DNA of 64,000 nucleotides from Coriobacterium glomerans PW2. GTDB lineage: Bacteria; Actinomycetota; Coriobacteriia; Coriobacteriales; Coriobacteriaceae. Under the pieces are notes generated by a model. That model had not been told where the DNA came from. It made no database searches and worked only from the letters and a program-made list of their open reading frames with translations. Shown here piece by piece: positions 6,638 to 62,221 of the stretch. Made by a program: the position numbers and the translations under genes. The stretch covers positions 1,984,001 to 2,048,000 of the forward strand of contig NC_015389.1 in the NCBI RefSeq assembly GCF_000195315.1, written 5' to 3'. Position 1 is the stretch's first letter. Every line of letters starts with the position of its first letter.

Positions 6638-7537
6638 TTATTTTGCTGCTTCTAACTGAGCACCTCGATAATCTTTTGGAGACATGTTGGCCCATTTCCT
6701 GAATTGTCTTGTAAAGTGGGCGGCATTTCGATAACCAACGATCTCTGCGATTTCACAAATTGCCAGTTTGGGTTGATGAAGATAAAACTTCGCTTGATTA
6801 AATCGAAGTTGATCTAAATATTTTTTTGGGCTACAAGAGTATACTTTTTTGAAAGCCGTCAACATCGTACTATTGCTGATATTCAACGAGTGGGCTGTAT
6901 AGCTCATCGAAAGCAATTCTTCGTTTTCTTCAGAAGGATCTTGAGTATACATACGGAAATTTTGTTGAATCGATTCTGCAATTGATTTCGCTAAGACAAG
7001 GGAGGTGCTGTCCGTATGAGACAATTGCAGCTTTTCATCTTCTACATAATCCAACAAGGCGCTCATCAATTCTAACAGTAAAATTTCAATAGCGATTTTT
7101 TCTTTTATACCGAAGTGATCATTTGCTAAGAACGCAATGAGATGCTGAAGAATCTGAGAAATTACTTGATACGCAGGGTTTGCTTTCTTTAGTAAAAGCG
7201 GGCAATGCATTAATAATTGCTGTTGGACTTCGGGCTCATCGAGATCAAAATGCATACAGAAATACTCCAACCCTTCCCCTGAAACACAAGTGTTTTCGTG
7301 GGCCCTACCAGGAGGTATCAAGATGACATCATTTGCAACAAAATCGAACTGACTAGCTTCGAAGATCGTTCGTTGCCTTCCAGCAATAATCAACATGATT
7401 TCAAAGGCAAAATGGGTTTCTTGCGGTGCGCGCCATCCTGAAAGAACCTTTTGCTTGTGTCCACCAAAGGTTTTCAAATTTATATCAATATCTGGTAGTT
7501 TAACGAGTTGTTCTAGCCATTCAGGTGTTGGGTTCAT
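6638..7537 (-). CDS. AraC-family transcriptional regulator
   Basis: A ~299-residue regulator. The N-terminal half is an AraC-type cupin sensor (FEIMLIIAGRQR, then IPPGRAHENTC). The C-terminal ~100 residues carry two helix-turn-helix units: ISNSTMLTAFKKVYSCSPKKY, then ICEIAEIVGYRNAAHFTRQF. The start is set at the ATG at 7537, with AAGGAG 10 nt upstream; the longer frame from 7648 has no ribosome site. It is divergent from the GH43 gene and upstream of MFS-GH5, so it is probably the sugar-responsive activator of both. It belongs to the AT-rich island. Confidence 0.88.
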   Translation of the reverse strand: MNPTPEWLEQLVKLPDIDINLKTFGGHKQKVLSGWRAPQETHFAFEIMLIIAGRQRTIFEASQFDFVANDVILIPPGRAHENTCVSGEGLEYFCMHFDLDEPEVQQQLLMHCPLLLKKANPAYQVISQILQHLIAFLANDHFGIKEKIAIEILLLELMSALLDYVEDEKLQLSHTDSTSLVLAKSIAESIQQNFRMYTQDPSEENEELLSMSYTAHSLNISNSTMLTAFKKVYSCSPKKYLDQLRFNQAKFYLHQPKLAICEIAEIVGYRNAAHFTRQFRKWANMSPKDYRGAQLEAAK

Positions 7538-44967: not shown

Positions 44968-45315
44968 GAGCGTCCTTTCACGTACTCCCGCCGAGCCCTT
45001 TTGCCGGGCCGGTCTGGTACAGGTGATATGCAACTCACTCTATTGTATCCAGACATATCGGCTCACAACGAAACACCACCGCGATGACGCAAGAATTAGT
45101 CAGATTCGATAGGAGATTTCAACGGAGGTGCGCATTGACGGCCCTGAACGGAGGCCATATGCGATCAAAACATAGTACGATAGGGTACCGGTGACGCGAG
45201 ATGCGAGTCAGCCGTTCCGCGCGAAGAACACGGCCGAGATCTCATCGCGGCCGTCAGGAACCGCCTCGACCTGTGATCGAGCGGCCGTCCAGATCGATTC
45301 GTCGGAAGGATCGCC
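44968..45315. other. intergenic region, divergent promoters only
   Basis: 348 bp between folP-folK and the exonuclease gene. A TACGAT (~45176) could be a -10 for the exonuclease. An inverted repeat ACGGCC/GGCCGT lies near 45231-45270. No gene is convincing. Confidence 0.35.
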
Positions 45316-46167
45316 ATGCCAGACATGCAACGCGCCGGCTCCCAACCTGAGCGGGCTGACGAGCGGATATATCGATTCGCTTCTTGGAATGTGAACGGCC
45401 TGCGCGCGCTCATGAAGAAGGAGCCGGACTTCAGCGAGATCGCCGCGAGCCTCAATGCCGATATCCTGGCCATTCAAGAGACGAAGCTTCAGGAGGGCCA
45501 GATCGATCTCGATCTGGCCGGATACCATCAGACGTGGAGCTATGCCGCGCGCAAGGGCTATTCCGGCACGGCGGTGTTTTCCCGCGAGCAGCCGATCCGG
45601 ACGCTGAGAGCAGATGCCATGCTGGATGTCGTCGAGGGCGGCGAGTTGCTCGAGCCTGCGATACGAGAGGGGCGCGTGTGCGCCCTTGAGTTCGAGCGCT
45701 TCTGGTTCGCGGACGTCTACACGCCCAACTCGCAAGACGGGCTCGCGCGGCTTCCGGTGCGCTTGGCGTGGGACGAAGCCTACCGCGCGTTTTTGAAGCA
45801 GCTGGAGCGCATGGGAGACAAACCTGTTGTCACCTGCGGCGACTTCAATGTGGCGCACAACGAGATAGACCTCAGGAATCCCAAGTCGAACCGCGGGAAC
45901 GCCGGCTTCTCAGATGAGGAGCGAGCGAGCTTCAGCAGGCTGCTCGAAGCCGGCTTCACCGACACGTTCCGCTATCTGTATCCGGACGTGCGCGATGCCT
46001 ACAGCTGGTGGAGCTATCGGTTCCATGCGCGCCGAACCAACGCCGGCTGGCGCATCGACTACTTCCTCGTGAGCGACTCCGTACGAGATCGCATCGTGGA
46101 GGCGACGATACGCCAGGACGTCTTCGGCTCCGACCACTGCCCGGTGGAACTCGTCATCGCGCTCTAG
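45316..46167 (+). CDS. xth: exodeoxyribonuclease III
   Basis: A 283-residue AP endonuclease/exonuclease of base-excision repair. All family motifs are visible in order: SWNVNGLRA (~25), IQETKLQ (~60), VYTPNSQ (~130), TCGDFNVAH (~175), GWRIDYFLVS (~245) and SDHCPVELVI at the end. They hold the metal Glu, the Asp/Asn pair and the catalytic His. The ATG has GGAAGGA 6-7 nt upstream. Its end overlaps the convergent antiporter gene by 14 bp. Confidence 0.95.
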   Translation: MPDMQRAGSQPERADERIYRFASWNVNGLRALMKKEPDFSEIAASLNADILAIQETKLQEGQIDLDLAGYHQTWSYAARKGYSGTAVFSREQPIRTLRADAMLDVVEGGELLEPAIREGRVCALEFERFWFADVYTPNSQDGLARLPVRLAWDEAYRAFLKQLERMGDKPVVTCGDFNVAHNEIDLRNPKSNRGNAGFSDEERASFSRLLEAGFTDTFRYLYPDVRDAYSWWSYRFHARRTNAGWRIDYFLVSDSVRDRIVEATIRQDVFGSDHCPVELVIAL

Positions 46168-51784: not shown

Positions 51785-51935
51785 AAGATCTCCTCGCTCG
51801 AATTTGATAGGTTCCGCAGTCTTGAAGCTGACTTGATCTGCGGCTCATCGCCCTGCGGAAACTGTGTCGGGATAAGCACGATTTTCCTCGTTTCGCAAGA
51901 AGACGACGCATTCACCCCTGCAGTATTCTAATATA

Positions 51936-51963
51936 AGAAAAATGAAGCCCCTAAAGGGGCTTC
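51936..51963 (-). terminator. tracrRNA terminator
   Basis: An 8-bp perfect stem GAAGCCCC/GGGGCTTC with loop TTTA, followed on the minus strand by ATTTTTCTTAT. It forms the 3' end of the tracrRNA. Confidence 0.9.
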
Positions 51964-52054
51964 AAATTGTCTCCTACGAGACGCCTCCGAAGGGAGGCAA
52001 GTTTGGCAAAGCCGTATTTTGACTCGCAGTGCTGTCCTGACTGGTAATCAAGAC
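51936..52054 (-). ncRNA. tracrRNA of the type II-A CRISPR system
   Basis: Transcribed away from cas9. The 5' part (52054-~52016) is the anti-repeat: it shares GATTACCAGTCAG exactly, and CACTGC after a short mismatch, with the complement of the array repeat. A small bulge near GAGTC follows, as in other type II pairs. Downstream come a CCTCCC/GGGAGG-like stem (CCTCC-CTTC-GGAGG), a GTCTC-GTAG-GAGAC hairpin, and an intrinsic terminator GAAGCCCC-TTTA-GGGGCTTC followed by ATTTTT. The -10 is TATACT (52066-52061) with an extended TGA. Length ~119 nt. Confidence 0.9.
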
Positions 52055-52066
52055 GAAAGTAGTATA
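52037..52066. promoter_or_regulatory. overlapping face-to-face promoters of tracrRNA and cas9
   Basis: On the minus strand, TATACT (52066-52061) with extended -10 TGA serves the tracrRNA. On the plus strand, CTGACT (52037-52042), a 17-nt spacer and TAGTAT (52060-52065) could serve cas9, starting ~20 bp before its ATG. The two -10 elements share the same bases, so they would exclude each other. The plus-strand -35 lies inside the anti-repeat. Confidence 0.5.
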
Positions 52067-52090
52067 TCACGTCGTGAAGGGTAAACAAAT

Positions 52091-55000
52091 ATGAAATTGC
52101 GGGGGATTGAAGACGACTACAGCATCGGCTTAGACATGGGTACGTCATCGGTTGGATGGGCGGTGACGGACGAACGAGGGACACTCGCGCACTTCAAGCG
52201 AAAGCCCACATGGGGAAGCAGACTCTTCCGAGAGGCTCAGACCGCAGCTGTCGCACGCATGCCGCGCGGTCAGCGAAGACGCTATGTCAGGCGGCGATGG
52301 CGTCTCGACCTTCTTCAGAAGCTCTTCGAACAGCAGATGGAGCAGGCCGATCCAGACTTTTTCATTCGACTCAGACAGTCCAGGTTGCTGCGGGACGATC
52401 GCGCGGAGGAGCACGCGGACTATCGGTGGCCGCTGTTCAATGATTGTAAGTTTACCGAACGCGACTATTATCAACGCTTTCCGACGATCTACCATGTACG
52501 CAGCTGGCTTATGGAAACTGACGAGCAAGCGGATATTCGTCTGATCTATCTCGCATTGCACAATATCGTCAAGCACCGTGGCAATTTTCTGCGAGAGGGA
52601 CAGAGTCTGAGCGCAAAAAGCGCCCGGCCCGACGAGGCGCTCAATCACCTCCGAGAGACGCTCCGGGTCTGGAGCTCCGAGCGCGGATTCGAATGCTCCA
52701 TTGCTGATAACGGCAGCATTCTTGCCATGCTGACGCACCCGGACCTCTCGCCCTCCGACAGGCGAAAGAAGATCGCTCCCCTGTTCGATGTGAAATCCGA
52801 CGACGCTGCGGCCGATAAGAAGCTCGGAATTGCGTTGGCCGGTGCTGTGATCGGACTCAAAACGGAGTTCAAGAACATCTTCGGAGATTTCCCCTGCGAA
52901 GACTCGAGCATCTATCTTTCAAATGACGAAGCAGTGGATGCGGTCCGATCGGCTTGTCCGGATGACTGCGCCGAACTGTTCGATCGACTGTGCGAGGTCT
53001 ACTCAGCATACGTGCTTCAAGGTCTGCTGTCGTATGCGCCCGGACAGACCATCTCAGCCAATATGGTAGAGAAGTATCGCCGTTACGGTGAAGATCTCGC
53101 GTTGCTCAAGAAACTGGTCAAGATCTATGCTCCCGATCAGTACCGGATGTTCTTCTCCGGTGCCACCTATCCAGGGACGGGTATCTATGATGCCGCCCAA
53201 GCACGCGGTTACACCAAATACAATCTCGGGCCCAAAAAATCAGAATACAAGCCAAGCGAATCCATGCAGTATGACGACTTCAGAAAAGCGGTTGAGAAGC
53301 TTTTCGCCAAAACCGACGCTCGTGCTGACGAACGCTATCGCATGATGATGGATCGATTTGACAAGCAGCAATTCCTCCGTAGGCTCAAAACAAGCGACAA
53401 CGGAAGCATCTATCATCAACTCCACCTTGAAGAGCTCAAGGCCATCGTCGAAAATCAAGGGCGCTTCTATCCGTTTCTCAAGCGGGACGCAGACAAACTC
53501 GTCTCGTTGGTCTCATTTCGCATCCCCTATTATGTTGGACCGCTTTCAACAAGAAACGCCCGGACCGATCAGCATGGCGAGAATCGATTCGCATGGTCCG
53601 AACGCAAGCCGGGTATGCAGGACGAGCCGATCTTTCCATGGAACTGGGAGTCCATTATCGATCGGAGCAAAAGCGCGGAGAAGTTCATTCTGCGTATGAC
53701 GGGGATGTGCACGTACCTTCAGCAGGAGCCGGTTTTGCCCAAGTCGTCTCTCCTATACGAGGAGTTTTGCGTCTTGAATGAGCTGAACGGCGCCCATTGG
53801 TCCATCGACGGTGATGACGAGCATCGCTTCGATGCCGCCGATCGAGAAGGCATCATCGAGGAGCTCTTCCGGCGCAAGCGCACGGTGAGCTACGGCGATG
53901 TCGCCGGCTGGATGGAGCGCGAGCGAAATCAGATCGGAGCTCACGTGTGTGGCGGGCAGGGAGAAAAAGGATTCGAATCGAAACTCGGATCATATATATT
54001 CTTCTGCAAGGACGTTTTCAAAGTCGAACGGCTGGAGCAATCAGACTATCCCATGATCGAACGGATCATTCTGTGGAATACGCTGTTCGAGGATCGCAAG
54101 ATTTTAAGCCAGCGCCTCAAGGAGGAGTACGGCAGCAGGCTATCGGCTGAGCAGATAAAAACAATCTGCAAAAAACGTTTCACCGGTTGGGGCCGGTTGT
54201 CAGAGAAGTTTCTGACGGGCATCACCGTGCAGGTTGATGAAGACAGCGTATCGATCATGGACGTTTTGCGCGAGGGGTGCCCCGTCTCGGGCAAACGCGG
54301 GAGAGCCATGGTGATGATGGAAATCCTGCGCGATGAGGAGCTGGGCTTTCAGAAGAAGGTGGATGATTTCAACAGGGCGTTTTTCGCTGAGAATGCCCAA
54401 GCGCTCGGAGTAAATGAGCTGCCCGGTTCCCCCGCCGTCCGCAGAAGCCTCAATCAATCGATACGCATCGTCGATGAGATCGCATCGATTGCCGGAAAGG
54501 CACCGGCGAACATCTTCATCGAGGTCACAAGGGATGAGGATCCCAAAAAGAAGGGCAGGCGCACCAAAAGGCGATACAACGACCTGAAAGATGCGCTTGA
54601 GGCATTCAAGAAAGAGGATCCCGAGCTATGGCGAGAGCTTTGCGAAACGGCTCCCAATGATATGGACGAGCGTCTGTCGCTCTATTTCATGCAGCGAGGC
54701 AAGTGCCTCTATTCCGGACGCGCGATCGATATTCATCAGCTCAGCAATGCCGGAATATACGAGGTCGATCACATCATTCCGCGCACCTATGTCAAAGACG
54801 ACAGTTTGGAGAACAAAGCACTGGTGTATCGAGAGGAGAACCAGCGCAAGACCGACATGCTGCTCATCGATCCCGAGATCCGACGACGGATGAGCGGATA
54901 TTGGCGCATGCTTCATGAGGCCAAACTCATCGGAGACAAGAAATTCAGAAACCTGCTGCGCTCGCGCATCGACGACAAGGCACTGAAGGGTTTCATAGCT

Positions 55001-56245
55001 CGCCAGCTCGTTGAAACAGGCCAGATGGTCAAACTTGTTCGGTCCCTCTTGGAGGCGAGATATCCGGAGACGAACATCATCTCCGTGAAGGCGAGCATCT
55101 CTCATGACCTACGCACGGCGGCAGAGCTCGTAAAGTGCCGTGAGGCAAATGATTTTCATCATGCGCATGACGCCTTCTTGGCATGTCGTGTAGGACTGTT
55201 CATTCAGAAGCGCCATCCATGCGTTTACGAGAACCCCATCGGTCTGTCCCAAGTTGTCAGAAACTATGTCAGACAGCAAGCAGATATCTTCAAGAGGTGC
55301 CGCACCATCCCGGGTTCAAGCGGCTTCATCGTCAACAGCTTCATGACCTCTGGATTTGACAAAGAAACCGGCGAAATCTTCAAGGATGATTGGGATGCGG
55401 AAGCAGAAGTCGAGGGCATCCGTCGCTCGTTGAATTTTCGACAATGTTTCATCAGTCGCATGCCATTCGAAGACCATGGGGTCTTTTGGGACGCGACGAT
55501 CTATTCTCCGCGCGCTAAGAAGACCGCGGCGCTGCCTTTGAAGCAAGGGCTCAATCCAAGCAGATACGGCTCTTTCTCGCGTGAACAGTTTGCTTACTTT
55601 TTTATATATAAGGCACGGAATCCAAGAAAGGAGCAAACGCTGTTCGAATTCGCCCAAGTCCCCGTTCGGTTGTCAGCGCAGATCAGGCAAGATGAGAATG
55701 CGCTCGAGCGCTACGCGCGCGAACTTGCCAAGGATCAAGGCCTCGAGTTCATCCGAATCGAACGATCGAAGATCCTGAAAAATCAACTTATCGAAATCGA
55801 TGGCGACCGGCTCTGCATCACAGGGAAAGAAGAAGTCCGCAATGCTTGTGAACTTGCCTTCGCACAAGATGAGATGCGCGTGATCAGGATGCTGGTAAGC
55901 GAGAAACCCGTTTCACGAGAATGTGTCATATCGTTGTTCAATAGGATCTTGTTACATGGTGATCAGGCCAGTCGAAGATTATCCAAACAGCTGAAGCTCG
56001 CGTTGCTTTCTGAAGCGTTTTCCGAAGCCTCGGACAACGTACAGCGTAACGTGGTGCTAGGACTTATCGCTATTTTCAACGGGTCAACCAATATGGTAAA
56101 CCTTAGCGATATCGGAGGAAGCAAATTCGCGGGAAACGTGCGAATCAAGTATAAAAAAGAGCTCGCAAGCCCAAAGGTCAATGTCCATCTCATCGATCAA
56201 TCGGTAACAGGAATGTTCGAAAGGAGGACGAAAATTGGCCTTTAG
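52091..56245 (+). CDS. cas9: Cas9 (type II-A CRISPR nuclease)
   Basis: 1384 residues, the usual size of type II-A Cas9. RuvC-I is YSIGLDMGTSSVGWAV with D15. The arginine-rich bridge helix is near residue 70 (RRYVRRRWRLDLLQKLF). RuvC-II is NIFIEVTRDED with E811; HNH is YEVDHIIPRTYV with H894; RuvC-III is HHAHDAFLA with H1023-D1027. All catalytic residues are intact. The last ~280 residues form the PAM-interacting part. With crRNA and tracrRNA it cuts both strands of invading DNA. The ATG has GAAGGG upstream; the end overlaps cas1 by 11 bp. Confidence 0.97.
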   Translation: MKLRGIEDDYSIGLDMGTSSVGWAVTDERGTLAHFKRKPTWGSRLFREAQTAAVARMPRGQRRRYVRRRWRLDLLQKLFEQQMEQADPDFFIRLRQSRLLRDDRAEEHADYRWPLFNDCKFTERDYYQRFPTIYHVRSWLMETDEQADIRLIYLALHNIVKHRGNFLREGQSLSAKSARPDEALNHLRETLRVWSSERGFECSIADNGSILAMLTHPDLSPSDRRKKIAPLFDVKSDDAAADKKLGIALAGAVIGLKTEFKNIFGDFPCEDSSIYLSNDEAVDAVRSACPDDCAELFDRLCEVYSAYVLQGLLSYAPGQTISANMVEKYRRYGEDLALLKKLVKIYAPDQYRMFFSGATYPGTGIYDAAQARGYTKYNLGPKKSEYKPSESMQYDDFRKAVEKLFAKTDARADERYRMMMDRFDKQQFLRRLKTSDNGSIYHQLHLEELKAIVENQGRFYPFLKRDADKLVSLVSFRIPYYVGPLSTRNARTDQHGENRFAWSERKPGMQDEPIFPWNWESIIDRSKSAEKFILRMTGMCTYLQQEPVLPKSSLLYEEFCVLNELNGAHWSIDGDDEHRFDAADREGIIEELFRRKRTVSYGDVAGWMERERNQIGAHVCGGQGEKGFESKLGSYIFFCKDVFKVERLEQSDYPMIERIILWNTLFEDRKILSQRLKEEYGSRLSAEQIKTICKKRFTGWGRLSEKFLTGITVQVDEDSVSIMDVLREGCPVSGKRGRAMVMMEILRDEELGFQKKVDDFNRAFFAENAQALGVNELPGSPAVRRSLNQSIRIVDEIASIAGKAPANIFIEVTRDEDPKKKGRRTKRRYNDLKDALEAFKKEDPELWRELCETAPNDMDERLSLYFMQRGKCLYSGRAIDIHQLSNAGIYEVDHIIPRTYVKDDSLENKALVYREENQRKTDMLLIDPEIRRRMSGYWRMLHEAKLIGDKKFRNLLRSRIDDKALKGFIARQLVETGQMVKLVRSLLEARYPETNIISVKASISHDLRTAAELVKCREANDFHHAHDAFLACRVGLFIQKRHPCVYENPIGLSQVVRNYVRQQADIFKRCRTIPGSSGFIVNSFMTSGFDKETGEIFKDDWDAEAEVEGIRRSLNFRQCFISRMPFEDHGVFWDATIYSPRAKKTAALPLKQGLNPSRYGSFSREQFAYFFIYKARNPRKEQTLFEFAQVPVRLSAQIRQDENALERYARELAKDQGLEFIRIERSKILKNQLIEIDGDRLCITGKEEVRNACELAFAQDEMRVIRMLVSEKPVSRECVISLFNRILLHGDQASRRLSKQLKLALLSEAFSEASDNVQRNVVLGLIAIFNGSTNMVNLSDIGGSKFAGNVRIKYKKELASPKVNVHLIDQSVTGMFERRTKIGL

Positions 56246-57113
56246 AAACGTGCTGATTGAAAGCGCTTGCAAATGCACCTACCAAGGCGGCTATCTTGTT
56301 GTTCGCAAGGAGGATGATGCTGCCAAGATCCACCTTTCAGAGATTTCTTCGGTGACGCTTCAGTCCACGCAGGTCTTTGTGAGCGCCTATCTGCTCTCTG
56401 AACTCGCCAAAGCTAAGATCACCTTTGTCATCTCCGATGAAAAAAGAAATCCCGTCGGACAGTATCTTCCGATCTATGGTGCCCATAACACAAGCAAGCG
56501 CATCGGGGAACAGATCTCCTGGGAAGAACCGATCAAAAAACGCGTCTGGCAGCGGGTTGTTCGTGACAAGATCACCAATCAAGCTCGCTTGCTCGAAATT
56601 CGCGGACGTTCTGAAGAAGCCGGCCGAATCGGAGCCATCGTTTCCGACGTGCGCTCGGGGGACACCACAAATCGAGAGGCATATGCCGCGCGGTGTTATT
56701 TTCAATCATTGTTTGGTGATTCGTTCTCTCGCGATGATGACCTAGCAATCAATGCCGCGCTGAATTATGGATATGCCATTATCCTTTCAGCCGTCAATCG
56801 CGAGATCGTTTCGAGAGGCTATTTGACCCAGCTCGGTGTATGTCATAGAAACGAATACAACCAGTTTAATTTGTCATGCGATCTCATGGAACCATTCAGA
56901 CCGATCGTTGATCGGATTGTGTTCGACAATGTTCAAGATGACTTCACGCGAAACGATAGAAGGTTGCTCGTCGATCTTATGAACGGGTGTATCGCCTATC
57001 GCGATGGAACTTACAAGACAAGCTCCGTCATCTCGCTTTATGTGCAAGATTGCCTCAATGCGCTTAACAAGAGGCTGGCGATTGACGAGATTGACCCGTT
57101 TGACATCGTATGA
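56235..57113 (+). CDS. cas1: Cas1 (type II integrase for spacer acquisition)
   Basis: 292 residues. The metal-binding residues are E148 (TNREAYAARCYF), H204 (GVCHRNEYNQFNL) and E219 (CDLMEPFRPIVD), all present. With Cas2 it inserts new spacers at the leader end of the array. The start is a TTG at 56235, with AAGGAGG 7 nt upstream, inside the last codons of cas9. Its stop overlaps cas2 (ATGA). The system should therefore be able to acquire spacers. Confidence 0.96.
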   Translation: MAFRNVLIESACKCTYQGGYLVVRKEDDAAKIHLSEISSVTLQSTQVFVSAYLLSELAKAKITFVISDEKRNPVGQYLPIYGAHNTSKRIGEQISWEEPIKKRVWQRVVRDKITNQARLLEIRGRSEEAGRIGAIVSDVRSGDTTNREAYAARCYFQSLFGDSFSRDDDLAINAALNYGYAIILSAVNREIVSRGYLTQLGVCHRNEYNQFNLSCDLMEPFRPIVDRIVFDNVQDDFTRNDRRLLVDLMNGCIAYRDGTYKTSSVISLYVQDCLNALNKRLAIDEIDPFDIV

Positions 57114-57445
57114 GTGCGGAAACGAGGATTCGATACATGCGGCTTCTGATTTTTTTCGATCTTCCGGTCGATACCGCTCGACAGCGAAAAGACTACCGTC
57201 AGTTCAGACGATATCTCTTGAAAGATGGCTATCTCATGATGCAGGAATCTGTCTATGCAAAGCTTGTTGTAAACGATGGCGTAGCAGCCGCAGCCGTGAT
57301 CCGTCTTCGCAACAATCGACCGCCCTCGGGATTAGTGCAGGTTCTGAAAGTATCTGAAGGACAGTTTGCAACCATGGAATACATAACCGGTGAAGTGCGC
57401 TCATACGATGAGGTCGACTCCATGGAAGAGCTTCTGATCTTATGA
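57110..57445 (+). CDS. cas2: Cas2
   Basis: 111 residues with the ferredoxin-like fold opening YMRLLIFFDLPVDTARQRK. The conserved Asp (~17) and the DGYLMMQESVYAKLV strand are present. It forms the central dimer of the Cas1-Cas2 integrase. It overlaps both neighbours by 4 bp (ATGA), so all four cas genes are translationally chained. Confidence 0.96.
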   Translation: MSAETRIRYMRLLIFFDLPVDTARQRKDYRQFRRYLLKDGYLMMQESVYAKLVVNDGVAAAAVIRLRNNRPPSGLVQVLKVSEGQFATMEYITGEVRSYDEVDSMEELLIL

Positions 57446-58122
57446 GGATCGTCTTTTCCGGACTTGAAAGACCGATCGACATCGAACCGGGATTGCCCAC
57501 CGTCCTGCAGGTCGAAAACTCATCGTTATTCACACGCCTGTGCCTTTCCCTGCGAAGTGGAGAAGAGCGCGAAGCTATAGAACCCTATGTGATCTGGAGA
57601 GGCGAAAAAGAGATCGCCACCCGAGACGCTCTTATGTTCATCGGTGACCCGATGTTGTTGCCTTGGGATGACCGAGCTCTGATGGGCTCGATATCGAAAC
57701 GCTTTGAAAAAGAGCTGATAGAAGATGAGGAACTTCGACGCACGCTGGAAGATGCAGCAGTCGCGCTCTCATCACAAGTAGCCTCCTTGGGACTAAGCAT
57801 GTACGGAGACTATTCGTTTGCTATAGAATGGGATCTCAAGCGCTTCATCAAAGCGTTCGGGTTTGGAGCCCATCCAAACCCGCAAGAAACGTTCCTTGAC
57901 AATTTGATAGATTTCTTATCTTTTGTTCTTGACATCCAGTGTTCGAAAGTAATGGTGTTCGTTAATCTCAAAACTTTTTTGACAGAAATTGAACTTGAGA
58001 AGCTGTACGAACACGTTTTTTTCTCAAAAACAAGGGTGCTGCTCCTTGAAAACAAAGCAGATCCGAATAGACACGAAAATGAGATAAAAACTACGATCGA
58101 CCTGGACTTTATCGAGAAATAG
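57442..58122 (+). CDS. csn2: Csn2 (type II-A adaptation protein)
   Basis: 226 residues. The start MRIVFSGLERPIDIEPG, the middle DIEWDLKRFIKAFGF-like segment (EWDLKRFIKAFGFG) and the end FLTEIELEKLYEHVFFSKTRVLLLEN match the short Csn2 of streptococcal type II-A systems. Csn2 forms a ring on DNA ends and is needed for spacer acquisition. Its presence defines subtype II-A. The last third becomes AT-richer. It ends 56 bp before the first repeat. Confidence 0.93.
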   Translation: MRIVFSGLERPIDIEPGLPTVLQVENSSLFTRLCLSLRSGEEREAIEPYVIWRGEKEIATRDALMFIGDPMLLPWDDRALMGSISKRFEKELIEDEELRRTLEDAAVALSSQVASLGLSMYGDYSFAIEWDLKRFIKAFGFGAHPNPQETFLDNLIDFLSFVLDIQCSKVMVFVNLKTFLTEIELEKLYEHVFFSKTRVLLLENKADPNRHENEIKTTIDLDFIEK

Positions 58123-58178
58123 CAAGTATATCCGGTCAGGACGGGCGTCTTCCGCGCAGAGAAGATTTTGATCCAATG
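58123..58178 (+). promoter_or_regulatory. CRISPR leader
   Basis: 56 bp between the csn2 stop and repeat 1, where Cas1-Cas2 would insert new spacers. It ends in ATCCAATG before the repeat. The array promoter must be here or inside csn2; I cannot point to a clear -10. Confidence 0.6.
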
Positions 58179-58801
58179 GTTTTGGAGCAGTGTCGTTCTG
58201 ACTGGTAATCCAACTCCCTCTTTTACGACAAAAATAGCTGGCTGGTTTTGGAGCAGTGTCGTTCTGACTGGTAATCCAACTACCGAGCATGGGAGAGGAA
58301 GGGTATGGAGTTTTGGAGCAGTGTCGTTCTGACTGGTAATCCAACCCCAAGGCAGTGCTGGTGCGGGCATCGTCGGTTTTGGAGCAGTGTCGTTCTGACT
58401 GGTAATCCAACGGAAAACCACCGTGCAAATGGACGCATTTGTTTTGGAGCAGTGCCGTTCTGACTGGTAATCCAACGATGGAGACCAAGATCGACCAGCA
58501 GGCCGGGTTTTGGAGCAGTGTCGTTCTGACTGGTAATCCAACTGCATGGAGCCCTGAGGAGGATGACAGCTAGTTTTGGAGCAGTGTCGTTCTGACTGGT
58601 AATCTAACCTTATTCTTACCGGCTCACCCCTCAACGGGTTTTGGAGCAGTGTCGTTCTGACTGGTAATCCAACGGAGAAAATGGAGAGGAAGCGTTATTG
58701 GCTGTTTTGGAGCAGTGTCGTTCTGACTGGTAATCCAACCACAAATAAGGATGACAGCGCAACGGTGCGGTTTTGGAGCAGTGTCGTTCTGACTGGTAAT
58801 C
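58179..58801 (+). CRISPR. CRISPR array, ten repeats and nine spacers
   Basis: The 36-bp repeat begins GTTTTGGAGCAGTGTCG and ends GGTAATCCAAC, in the standard type II orientation. Repeats start at 58179, 58245, 58310, 58376, 58441, 58507, 58573, 58638, 58704 and 58770; spacers are 29-30 bp. Variants: repeat 5 has T15C, repeat 7 has C33T. Repeat 10 keeps only 32 bp, and the last CAAC is replaced by foreign sequence. A further full repeat lies at 60786, beyond a 1984-bp segment. The leader side is next to csn2, so older spacers are to the right. Confidence 0.98.
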
Positions 58802-59724
58802 AGGAATGCGTTAGGTCTGGGATACTGGACATGCCCGAATATCACATATTCCCACTTGATAGCAGACCAAAAGTTATGCAATTTAAAGGAAAATTGCTGT
58901 CCTTGCGTAAAAAATCACGCATATCTGAAGCCACAAATAAAGATGGTATTTGCAAGCATAGCAGAAAAGTGCTGTGTGAATCCATTAATGAGTTAATTGA
59001 AAGAGGAGACAGATCAGGCTCCGGTATCAAGATATTGGTATTCTGCAATAGCTCAACTGAATCCAGCATTAAAGAAAGAACTGACTTTAAATCCCAAAGA
59101 TCAATGATCATGAATGAGTTGCGCTTAACATACGGTAACAGAAGATTAATGTTCTCATCATACCTAAGGGAAGACGAGCATTTGGACCCAGAATGGACAG
59201 GGAAATCAAAAAGAGGGTCCATTAACGTGCCGTTCATCATTAATAAAATGAATCAAGGTATGCATGTTGATGATATTGACATGTCCATCATGATGGATGA
59301 TAGAAGTAAAAGCAACATAATGTACTGGCAAAGAATAGGCCGCATGCGCTCCATCAATAGAGAGACTACACCGGTCATCATGGTCATGGATAATGGTGAA
59401 TCATTGGTTGAGCAGGTAAATATATCCAGATTGGCCAAAGAGGTTGATAAACTGGAAAGATATCATATGGATATAGGCGAAGCTGACATCAGGCAGGAGG
59501 ATGCCTTCCGCATAAGATGCATGGGGGATAGTACCAGGACTCTCTCCGGTAAATGGACACCAGCAAAAAGACTAATCAGTGCGTATAAATCCGCCCTGTA
59601 CTCCGATAACCTTGTATTTAAAAGAGCGTTAGAATCCAACCTAAGAAACTTGGACATGAGCGTCATGGAATGCTTGGATGATGCTAGAAATAGGGTGATT
59701 AAAAGTGAAAGATACTGGTCCTAA
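58802..59724 (+). pseudogene. SF2 helicase, C-terminal fragment
   Basis: The frame enters directly from the truncated repeat; the first Met is at 58831. About 297 residues form a superfamily-2 helicase C-terminal domain: motif IV-like ILVFCNSSTES, motif V KMNQGMHVDDIDMSIMM and motif VI YWQRIGRMRS. The Walker A/B half is absent, so it cannot act as a helicase alone. The sequence resembles phage or plasmid helicases. The open frame continues upstream through two repeats by chance. Codon use is AT-rich. It overlaps the next gene by 20 bp. Confidence 0.7.
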
Positions 59725-60319
59725 TATTATTGGTCCATTCATTGGACTCCATATTAATGCTAAAAATGCAGATAAGGTATTTAAAGCGCTTGGTGCTAAA
59801 AAACCTGATTCAGATGCTGATTTTACATCCCCAACAGCAGAACTTGAAAGGGGAAACCTTAATGCGAATGATCTAGCTGCATTTAAAAAGGTAAGCGCTC
59901 CATTTAGATCAGCTGATGGGGAGCTAATTGAACCTACATTCAATTCCTGCCTTCAGCTATCAAAGAAAACTGGGCTTAATGTTACTGGTTTGGTTGAGGA
60001 CCAATTCCATAGCATCCATTTTGACGCATCAAATGCATATGAGGACCCTTGGGCTGCTGAATCCCTTGATTTCATTACACAAGCATTGCCTGATGCAGAA
60101 CCACTAAATCTTGAAAATGATTATGACGTTAAGATTGTTGAACATTTTAGTGTATCAGACATGTCAAAACTATTCCGACTGCAATGGCTGTTTTGCTATG
60201 GTAAAGAGAATCGTAAAAGATTTTTAAAATCAGCCCCAGATGACTATGACTTATATGGTGATTTTGCTGATGAATATGATGAAATAACGGAAGCATTTGA
60301 AGAAAATGAAGTGGACTGA
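59705..60319 (+). CDS. acidic phage/plasmid-like protein of unknown function
   Basis: The only complete gene in the foreign segment: 204 residues, start GTG with AGGGTG ~10 nt upstream, overlapping the helicase fragment by 20 bp as in a phage operon. It starts MKDTGPNIIGPFIGLHINAK and ends in a very acidic tail (DDYDLYGDFADEYDEITEAF). I recognise no family. Its position after a helicase suggests a replication accessory protein such as a single-strand-binding or recombination factor. Net charge is strongly negative. Confidence 0.6.
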   Translation: MKDTGPNIIGPFIGLHINAKNADKVFKALGAKKPDSDADFTSPTAELERGNLNANDLAAFKKVSAPFRSADGELIEPTFNSCLQLSKKTGLNVTGLVEDQFHSIHFDASNAYEDPWAAESLDFITQALPDAEPLNLENDYDVKIVEHFSVSDMSKLFRLQWLFCYGKENRKRFLKSAPDDYDLYGDFADEYDEITEAFEENEVD

Positions 60320-60383
60320 CACTTATAAAACTGCCATGGTTGAAAATATCGTCCAGAATTGATCAATCGATTTTGCCATCGTC

Positions 60384-60785
60384 CTACTTCATGTACAGGG
60401 TGGCAAGACCATTTGACATCATGGCAATATAGCTATAACGCCTGACAAGAGTTGCTGTATGACTTCCCACATGCCATATATGGCTGTCCGTTAGTTTGCT
60501 TATCTCAGCCGTAACCAGCTTAAATCGGCTGTTAACATAACAGTCTTGCTTTAGCTCCACATTGCAATAAATGGGCTTGGTAAAAAATCCGGCAAAGTTT
60601 AAAGCATTCTCAACATAAATTTTGCTATCCGTGTAGTCAAATGCATTAACCAGCTGCTCCAAATTGTTACATATTAGATTACCGTTAAGAGTGCTCTCCT
60701 TAAAATATGGCATACCAAGAAAACTGGGTATGCGAAACTCCTCATCATTAACATACAGCCACCCATAATTTGCATTCGTTATGGT
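60384..60785 (-). pseudogene. unknown protein, N-terminus cut off by the CRISPR repeat
   Basis: A minus-strand frame of ~133 residues inside the segment, convergent with the previous genes. It reads WLYVNDEEFRIPSFLG, then YFKESTLNGNLICNNL and KLTDSHIWHVGSHTATLVRR. The frame stays open through the repeat by chance, and the upstream part is host DNA. So its true start was lost when the segment was joined to the repeat. It has no recognised family. Confidence 0.5.
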
Positions 60786-60821
60786 GTTTTGGAGCAGTGT
60801 CGCTCTGACTGGTAATCCAAC
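60786..60821 (+). repeat. terminal CRISPR repeat beyond the foreign segment
   Basis: A full 36-bp repeat with one change (T18C). No further repeat follows, so it is the trailer end of the array. Together with repeat 10 it brackets the 1984-bp segment in the same orientation, as repeats bracket spacers. Confidence 0.95.
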
Positions 60822-61381
60822 GCCCTCACAGTTGTGCACACGCATCGCTGAACGCTAGCCGACAAGACAGTCCCTCTTACGTCATACAACAAATGAATTA
60901 GACTTACCCGCAACTATCAACTTCAAAAGTAGCTAGCTGGAATTCGGTCCTTCCCAGACTCAATCTAGCTCTATCGACGCCCGCAATAACCGCTTCGGTA
61001 ACGCAGTTGTGCAACAAAACATGTCAGTTCACAACCAATCAATACAAACCTGCCATCGGTTGCCTGTTTTCCATTCTTTCAAGAAGTCCTGGGCCTCGGC
61101 ATGTTTGATATTCTAGGTACTCCGAATTCGTCAGCGATCTGGAAAGCATGCAAGATGTCATTTTTCACTCTGCACCAACCATTATTATTGTGTACTATTG
61201 CTCATGGGCTGTGTATGTGCTGCATACCGATGGAAAAAAGCGATTTGCCTCCCTGTCGAGAGACGCGCATCGCTCCAAACTTCAGTGCTTTCGTAGCTGC
61301 GGTTGCACATGGACTGATTTCGTCCGCCATCTCGGTCTGAGGGCTTGACGGAAGGCGTCCAATCTATAAGAGAGGGGTTCT
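60822..61381. other. intergenic region after the CRISPR array
   Basis: 560 bp of mixed composition with no convincing gene; short plus-strand frames at 61101-61348 lack ribosome sites. It probably holds the promoter of nfnAB at its right end. GC-rich host composition returns near 61.3 kb. Confidence 0.4.
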
Positions 61382-62221
61382 ATGTTCAAGATCCTGAAGA
61401 AGACGCAGTTCTCGGAGAAGGTCTTCGAGTATCGCGTCCACGCGCCGAAGCTGGCGAAGAAGGCTCACGCCGGCCAGTTTCTCATGGTGCGCACCTGTGA
61501 AACCGGCGAGCGGGTGCCATTCACGTTTGCTAACTGGAGCCCTGAGGAGGGCTGGATCGAGTTCATCTTCATGGTGATCGGCAAGACGACTCGCTGTCTG
61601 GCCGAACTCGAGGAGGGCGATGAGATCGCGGATCTGACCGGACCTCTCGGCTGCCCAACTGAGATCGAGGGGGACCGCGTCGCCGTCGTCGGCGGCGGCG
61701 TCGGCCTCGCGATCGCCTATCCGGTGGCGCGCACGATGTGCGAGGAGGGCAAGAAGGTGTCGGTCATCATGGGGGCCCGCACCAAGGATCTGCTCATCTT
61801 GTTCGAGCAGTTCGCGGCTCTGCCACTCGAAAACCTCTTCATCACGACCGATGACGGCACCATGGGCGAGAAAGGTGTCGTGACCCTGCCGCTCGAGCGC
61901 CTGTGCGAGACCGACAGCATCGACAGCACCTTCGTCGTCGGCCCTGTACCGATGATGAAGTACTCGACGCTCACGTGCCGCAAGTACAAGATCCCCATCG
62001 TGGCGAGCCTGAACCCGATCATGGTCGACGGAACCGGCATGTGCGGCTGCTGCCGCGTGGAGGTCGGTGGCGAGACCAAGTTCGCCTGCGTCGACGGCCC
62101 GGACTTCGACGCGAGCCTCGTCGACTGGGATGATCTCGCGCATCGGCAGGCGACCTATCTGGCTGAAGAGGCCGATTCCATCAAGCATCATGAGGAGGAC
62201 TGCGCATGCCACAGGAAGTAA
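61382..62221 (+). CDS. nfnA: NfnA: NADH-dependent ferredoxin:NADP+ oxidoreductase, small subunit
   Basis: A 279-residue FAD/NAD-binding reductase subunit of the sulfide-dehydrogenase/NfnA type. The N-terminal FAD domain has GERVPFTFANWSPEEGWIEF (in pieces) and the nucleotide-binding part VAVVGGGVGLAIAYPVAR (~100). The C-terminal [2Fe-2S] site is GTGMCGCCRVEVGG (~220). With NfnB it couples NADPH, NADH and ferredoxin by electron bifurcation in the cytoplasm. The ATG has GAGAGGGG upstream. It overlaps the next gene by 16 bp. Confidence 0.93.
   Translation: MFKILKKTQFSEKVFEYRVHAPKLAKKAHAGQFLMVRTCETGERVPFTFANWSPEEGWIEFIFMVIGKTTRCLAELEEGDEIADLTGPLGCPTEIEGDRVAVVGGGVGLAIAYPVARTMCEEGKKVSVIMGARTKDLLILFEQFAALPLENLFITTDDGTMGEKGVVTLPLERLCETDSIDSTFVVGPVPMMKYSTLTCRKYKIPIVASLNPIMVDGTGMCGCCRVEVGGETKFACVDGPDFDASLVDWDDLAHRQATYLAEEADSIKHHEEDCACHRK

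Follow-up and report, generated by a model that had tools for sequence, protein, structure and literature searches.

Foreign DNA segments far longer than ordinary spacers recur between the CRISPR repeats of Coriobacterium glomerans and its relatives

Foreign DNA between CRISPR repeats is a real and recurrent feature of the lineage to which Coriobacterium glomerans belongs. In the stretch of the C. glomerans PW2 genome analysed here (64,000 nucleotides, referred to throughout as the window), the last interval of a type II-A array, which is its trailer end and oldest slot, holds 1,984 bp where an ordinary CRISPR spacer has about 30 bp. Window included, inter-repeat segments of 74-2,266 bp (n=54, median 557 bp) were found in 12 of 23 readable arrays. 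We consider it probable that these segments are giant spacers, i.e. kilobase prespacers that would have been integrated untrimmed by the adaptation complex, with duplication of the repeat. CRISPR arrays in this lineage thereby seem to store gene fragments from phages and neighbours.

The CRISPR-Cas locus of the window and its last interval

The window encodes a complete type II-A CRISPR-Cas system, in which a tracrRNA anti-repeat is followed by cas9-cas1-cas2-csn2 and then by an array that reads away from csn2 (Table 1). The gene order, the presence of csn2, the 36-bp GTTTTGGAGC-type repeats, the tracrRNA anti-repeat and the ordinary spacers of 29-31 bp all resemble Streptococcus-type II-A arrays. 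The first nine repeats, each of 36 bp, start at 58179, 58245, 58310, 58376, 58441, 58507, 58573, 58638 and 58704 and are followed by spacers of 29-30 bp, none of which matched phage sequences. Sixteen bases of spacer 6 (58543-58572) are identical to 61535-61550 in a conserved gene just downstream of the array, a partial self-match. The entire locus (51785-61353) is an island flanked by pth and by the gene at 61382; these two genes lie near each other without a CRISPR island in many related genomes, and no CRISPR-Cas island was seen at this site in the relatives examined.

Table 1. Features of the CRISPR-Cas locus and its last interval, in window coordinates
Feature	Position	Strand	Basis and remarks
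Putative tracrRNA	51944..52049	-	Anti-repeat 52017-52049, hairpin 51944-51963; repeat complementarity; presumed extent
cas9, 1384 aa	52091..56245	+	TIGR01865 (Pfam/NCBIfam scan); RuvC and HNH motifs kept (motif alignment)
cas1, 292 aa, TTG start as listed	56235..57113	+	Operon position; homologues beside cas2/csn2 in related loci
cas2, 111 aa	57110..57445	+	Operon position; homologues in related loci
csn2, 226 aa	57442..58122	+	TIGR01866 5e-45, PF09711
Array leader side	58123..58178	+	Between csn2 and first repeat; presumed function
Nine repeats and nine ordinary 29-30 bp spacers	58179..58769	+	Sequence comparison
Repeat 10	58770..58801	+	32/36 bp kept; final CAAC reads AGGA
Putative giant spacer, 1,984 bp, 39% GC	58802..60785	+	No hidden repeat inside
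306-aa ORF, open at left junction	58804..59724	+	Possible C-terminal part of SF2 helicase; Helicase_C E=0.013, below cut-off
204-aa ORF, complete, no assigned function	59705..60319	+	No family match
133-aa ORF, convergent, open at right junction	60384..60785	-	No family match
Terminal repeat, complete, one substitution	60786..60821	+	Sequence comparison
Trailer region, genome single-copy, CRISPR island end	60822..61353	.	Relatives align again from about 61354-61369

An earlier note on this DNA had described a partial tenth repeat (32 of 36 bp) and a full terminal repeat enclosing 1,984 bp, and the repeat coordinates confirm this arrangement. The segment is present once in the single-contig 2.12-Mb genome, and a chance origin of its setting is excluded by the repeat array itself. 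A search for repeats or spacers hidden within it did no better than shuffled sequences, the one exception being a borderline match to spacer 9 (P~0.01 before correction for nine spacers). The description of the segment as AT-rich, with codon use unlike that of the host, also holds: GC content is about 0.39, as opposed to 0.637 in host genes, and AGA/AGG make up 25 of the 31 arginine codons in its first ORF, as opposed to 8 of 78 in the host set. Genes had been said to be cut at both ends, and both outer ORFs do run open into the junctions. The left-open ORF had moreover been read as a helicase lacking its N-terminal half; its open end stands, but the helicase identity is weak (Helicase_C E=0.013), and the best PDB match, a putative helicase, is insignificant (E=0.28). 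None of the segment's ORFs gave a significant family match in Pfam, PHROGs, NCBIfam or PADLOC, the AlphaFold2 model of the 204-aa ORF was too low in confidence to use (pLDDT 38), and Rfam returned nothing useful.

In agreement with the earlier note, scans against Pfam, PHROG and NCBIfam found no transposase or integrase in the segment, and none of the profile scans recognised a recombinase in the window. Among the 25 longest inverted-repeat pairs listed, none connects one end of the segment to the other, and on this basis the terminal inverted repeats and target-site duplication that mark a transposon were not found. Integration of a whole small circular element was considered and rejected: on closure of the circle, the left-open ORF and the convergent right-open ORF would overlap, and both would need the same DNA.

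The comparison with phage, plasmid and related genomes that the earlier note had called for gave no source. The segment's DNA had no match in phages or in 199 related genomes, and nothing but a chance 37-bp match in plasmids. Its genes gave no significant PHROG or phage-record match, and its proteins had no relative among phages, plasmids, IMG/VR, GTDB contigs or 397 genomes of the order; one protein-level match (L017) was frame-shifted and was dropped as chance. For the window's insert, a phage origin is therefore no more than possible.

Inter-repeat segments in related genomes

A repeat search of 199 genomes revealed arrays of relatives with large irregular gaps. Segments comparable to that of the window were found in G170, G042, G197, G116, G092, G090, G112, G136, G094, G278 and G227, whereas the arrays of G056, G062, G175, G164, G176, G146, G102, G130, G231, G068 and G010 hold only normal spacers. 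A single array can contain up to 10 giants, which are interspersed with ordinary spacers of 27-31 bp. Interval lengths are bimodal: an interval is either 27-31 bp or at least 74 bp long, with nothing between. In view of this recurrence, a reading of the insert as a single freak event is not supported.

Gaps were curated individually. A 2,047-bp gap in G278, which is an insertion sequence (IS) within a repeat, and gaps in G056, G006 and G275, which are bounded by doubtful repeats, were excluded from the 54. An apparent gap of 1,216 bp in G170 comprises a 1,152-bp segment, a repeat with a 2-nt deletion and a 30-bp spacer, and gaps of 1,126 and 593 bp in G090 each hide a degenerate repeat. The 1,690-bp gap of G227 is counted among the 54, yet it is doubtful, since it contains N and may be an assembly fault; it duplicates its neighbour's start. 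The IS in G278 (L131, G278:C2, 9654-11700) encodes a DDE transposase, sits inside an array repeat and mimics a giant spacer; at the same locus, cas9 is split near codon 701.

These G278 and G227 gaps, together with the fact that the window's junctions are known from assembled sequence alone, are what could be said for attributing the segments to assembly artefacts or transposon insertion. We find such an account barely credible, since the feature occurs in twelve genomes, several of which are single contigs or place it on contigs above 400 kb, and one repeat/segment junction is common to G170 and G110 at 95% identity over 394 bp. ISs are known within CRISPR-Cas loci, where they interrupt cas genes (PMC10359306), and like the G278 array IS they place kilobase DNA inside the locus. 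Unlike them, the window's segment has no transposase and lies between repeats, and where sources of segments were found they align end to end with chromosome or phage DNA.

The G110 side of the shared junction is a solitary repeat located away from cas genes (L065, G110:C1, about 45125-45700). One side of it carries 358 bp with 95% identity to a G170 giant, and the other a fragment that we take to be the end of a deoC-like gene; the repeat is probably what remains of a giant-bearing array. In G170 itself, a 108-bp stretch past the array's last repeat (L054 16113-16220) is 100% identical to a copy on G170:C7 (L118 2246-2353), which adjoins a MuF-like gene.

The repeats that flank the segments are of the local type. 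Nine arrays yielded 70 repeats that adjoin a gap of more than 60 bp, a count that still includes the IS of G278. Of these repeats, 55 are identical to the consensus of their own array, and the mean mismatch is 0.61 to that consensus versus 4.08 to the consensus of other arrays. The repeating unit of the relatives' arrays is therefore a segment plus one local repeat, as expected from spacer integration with duplication. This bears directly on whether the segments were captured by end joining or microhomology when a double-strand break within the array was repaired. At the window's own insertion such an origin has some appeal, as repeat 10 lacks 4 bp and no ordinary last spacer is left, a pattern that end processing would produce, and genes are cut at both ends of the segment. 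End joining, however, would not restore repeats, and most of the relatives' segments have both perfect; moreover, the feature is confined to inter-repeat positions, and the genome gave no Ku match in a search in which a control genome was positive. We therefore regard capture by end joining as decidedly unlikely, and integration with repeat duplication is favoured because both flanking repeats are usually intact. Among the mechanisms proposed in the earlier note, which are not fully separable here, end joining loses ground for the same reason.

Contents and sources of the segments

The clearest sources were found for G170, in its congener G110. Its first segment (1,106 bp) matches G110:C1:268211-269320 over its full length at 94% identity, and a 753-bp segment likewise matches G110:C1:1214753-1215502 at 95%; in both cases homology gives out no more than three bases from the repeats. 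Since syntenic DNA of G170 and G110 is only ~73% identical, these pieces were transferred from a G110-like species and did not come from G170's own chromosome. The counterparts in G110 look like ordinary chromosome: one holds a peptidase-like gene together with a complete 206-aa ORF and a truncated neighbour, and the other holds ilvE-like, DUF488 and murI-like genes, all of these gene names other than DUF488 being our own reading of the sequences. In the last segment of G170, a stretch from the interior of a phage terminase gene reads open through both ends; IMG/VR relatives share 72% protein identity with it. Together, the terminase fragment and the two cross-species segments bear out the earlier note's central proposal, that kilobase foreign DNA can come to lie between CRISPR repeats.

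Other segments point to phages as well. Four arrays (G170, G227, G136 and G092) have segments with the C-termini of MuF, VG15 or minor-capsid proteins, and a segment of G112 has a phage scaffold gene. MuF polymorphic toxins of temperate phages have been described (PMC5576092), and these four related arrays resemble them in holding 3' parts of MuF, VG15 or minor-capsid genes followed by other ORFs; unlike the phage genes, the putative toxin fragments lie between CRISPR repeats, away from a phage head module. Further domains in the relatives' segments comprise HicB, HipA_C, SocA/Panacea, nucleotidyltransferase, Gln_amidase and DUF488. Small complete ORFs often stand beside the truncated phage toxin or head genes, and some segments, such as the terminase fragment, are without any complete gene. 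Gene orientation relative to the array showed no significant bias among ORFs with database support.

Rows of gene-sized foreign units parted by short repeats recall the cassettes of integrons, and one could imagine a comparable site-specific system in which a recombinase moves cassettes in and out at the repeats and the cassettes are retained because of the immunity or antitoxin genes they carry. The small complete ORFs beside truncated toxin and head genes, the HicB, HipA_C, SocA and nucleotidyltransferase domains, and retention at the old end of arrays would all suit such a system. Unlike in integrons, however, the repeats are owned by the array and near-identical within it: each segment is followed by the repeat type of its host array, where mobile cassettes would carry theirs with them. 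Cut gene fragments make up many of the segments, some with no complete gene at all, 30-bp spacers are interspersed among them, and no recombinase was recognised in the window. A cassette system is accordingly very improbable.

The best rival to giant spacers is homologous recombination mediated by spacers. Two neighbouring spacers from the same invader would serve as 30-bp arms, and the stretch between their protospacers would replace the spacer-repeat-spacer unit of the array. With Cas1-Cas2 unchanged, this would account for outer repeats left intact and for foreign DNA that is contiguous and of variable length, and also for giants with overlapping sources within one array, as in G042, where two pairs of giants derive from overlapping source regions. 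It predicts, however, that the PAM of the system directly follows the initial ~30 nt of each giant, and the seven giants of G170 show no common motif at that point that might represent one. It would also require 30-bp homology to suffice alone, and two same-strand spacers to lie in the right order every time. Taken together, we judge recombination between two spacers to be unlikely. NCAANCA is common to the 3' flanks of both near-exact sources of G170 giants, which is suggestive at n=2 and establishes no PAM.

Array position, cas9 status and the origin of the segments

Giants are biased towards the trailer, or old, end of their arrays (mean normalised rank 0.81; 0 of 20,000 permutations, P<5e-5), and the bias persists when neighbouring giants are counted as one. 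Such a distribution would arise if giants survive better, e.g. through a useful gene, or if they formed chiefly in earlier times. At several giant-rich arrays, cas genes are now missing from the neighbourhood. By hand classification, with some contigs ending near the array, an intact cas9 lies nearby at four giant-bearing loci (the window, G090, G136 and G094) and is absent or broken at seven, as opposed to nine intact and none absent at ordinary loci (Fisher P=0.005). A search for Cas9 in eight genomes was empty, with no positive control among them. Because Cas9 has been reported to cut II-A prespacers down to 30 bp (PMC8034620), lost or weakened trimming is an appealing explanation for giants. 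The reverse reading, in which old giants are simply what is left once the cas genes have gone, is just as plausible.

Individual loci carry further traces of cas genes. In the cas-less array of G042 (L055, G042:C3, minus strand, position 7013 onward), a tracrRNA anti-repeat is fused to the first repeat, and the cas operon seems to have been deleted through recombination between the anti-repeat and an array repeat. A distant Cas1 (26% identity) is found in G092 (L122, G092:C10, 15856-16266), near a contig end, with the giant-bearing array 4 kb away.

The prevailing view attributes the short length of spacers to an integration machinery that gauges its substrate and trims it. Newly acquired spacers of a well-studied II-A system (n=399) were 28-32 bp long (PMC8265633), and spacers of mostly 30-31 bp have been reported elsewhere (PMC8034620), unlike the inter-repeat segments of 74-2,266 bp described here. 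Likewise, purified Cas1-Cas2 prefers short, processed substrates in vitro (PMC8390005). Text searches of an open-access library returned no account of long or giant spacers. Where array finders cap spacer length, the cap would split giant arrays, and may therefore explain why giants went unnoticed.

If the segments are giant spacers, as we favour, the type II-A adaptation machinery (Cas1-Cas2 and Csn2, with or without Cas9) would repeatedly integrate untrimmed fragments of ~0.1-2.3 kb. Cas1-Cas2 would presumably act as the integrase and failed trimming as the cause, and each integration would duplicate the repeat as it does for an ordinary spacer. The DNA would be supplied by phages, by mobile or toxin/antitoxin loci and by chromosomes of related species entering the cell. 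The complete cas1-cas2-csn2 set of the window counts in favour of integration by Cas1-Cas2, whereas the damaged repeat 10 counts against the giant-spacer reading, as it leaves no clean repeat duplication at the window's own insertion; the 4 bp may have been lost later by decay. Once integrated, giants would outlive ordinary spacers, possibly because selection retains useful complete genes. Spacers of non-physiological length leave Cas9 immunity unimpaired, and Cas9 protects only ~20 nt (PMC8034620); a giant spacer, if transcribed, could therefore still yield a Cas9 guide from the last ~20 nt before the next repeat.

A bolder proposal, to which we give a small chance, is that the CRISPR array acts as a gene bank, in which kilobase captures of phage and kin DNA with immunity, antitoxin or other useful genes would be kept at the old end and expressed, providing heritable protection by proteins beside that of crRNA. 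Giants may be either a side effect of imprecise adaptation or a stock of genes worth keeping. Giants between perfect repeats would mean that the ruler of spacer length fails or differs across a whole bacterial order, and CRISPR adaptation could then move genes and gene fragments between species. Giant-bearing arrays are natural systems for testing what sets spacer length and, if the stored genes are expressed, would be gene stores as well as guide stores.
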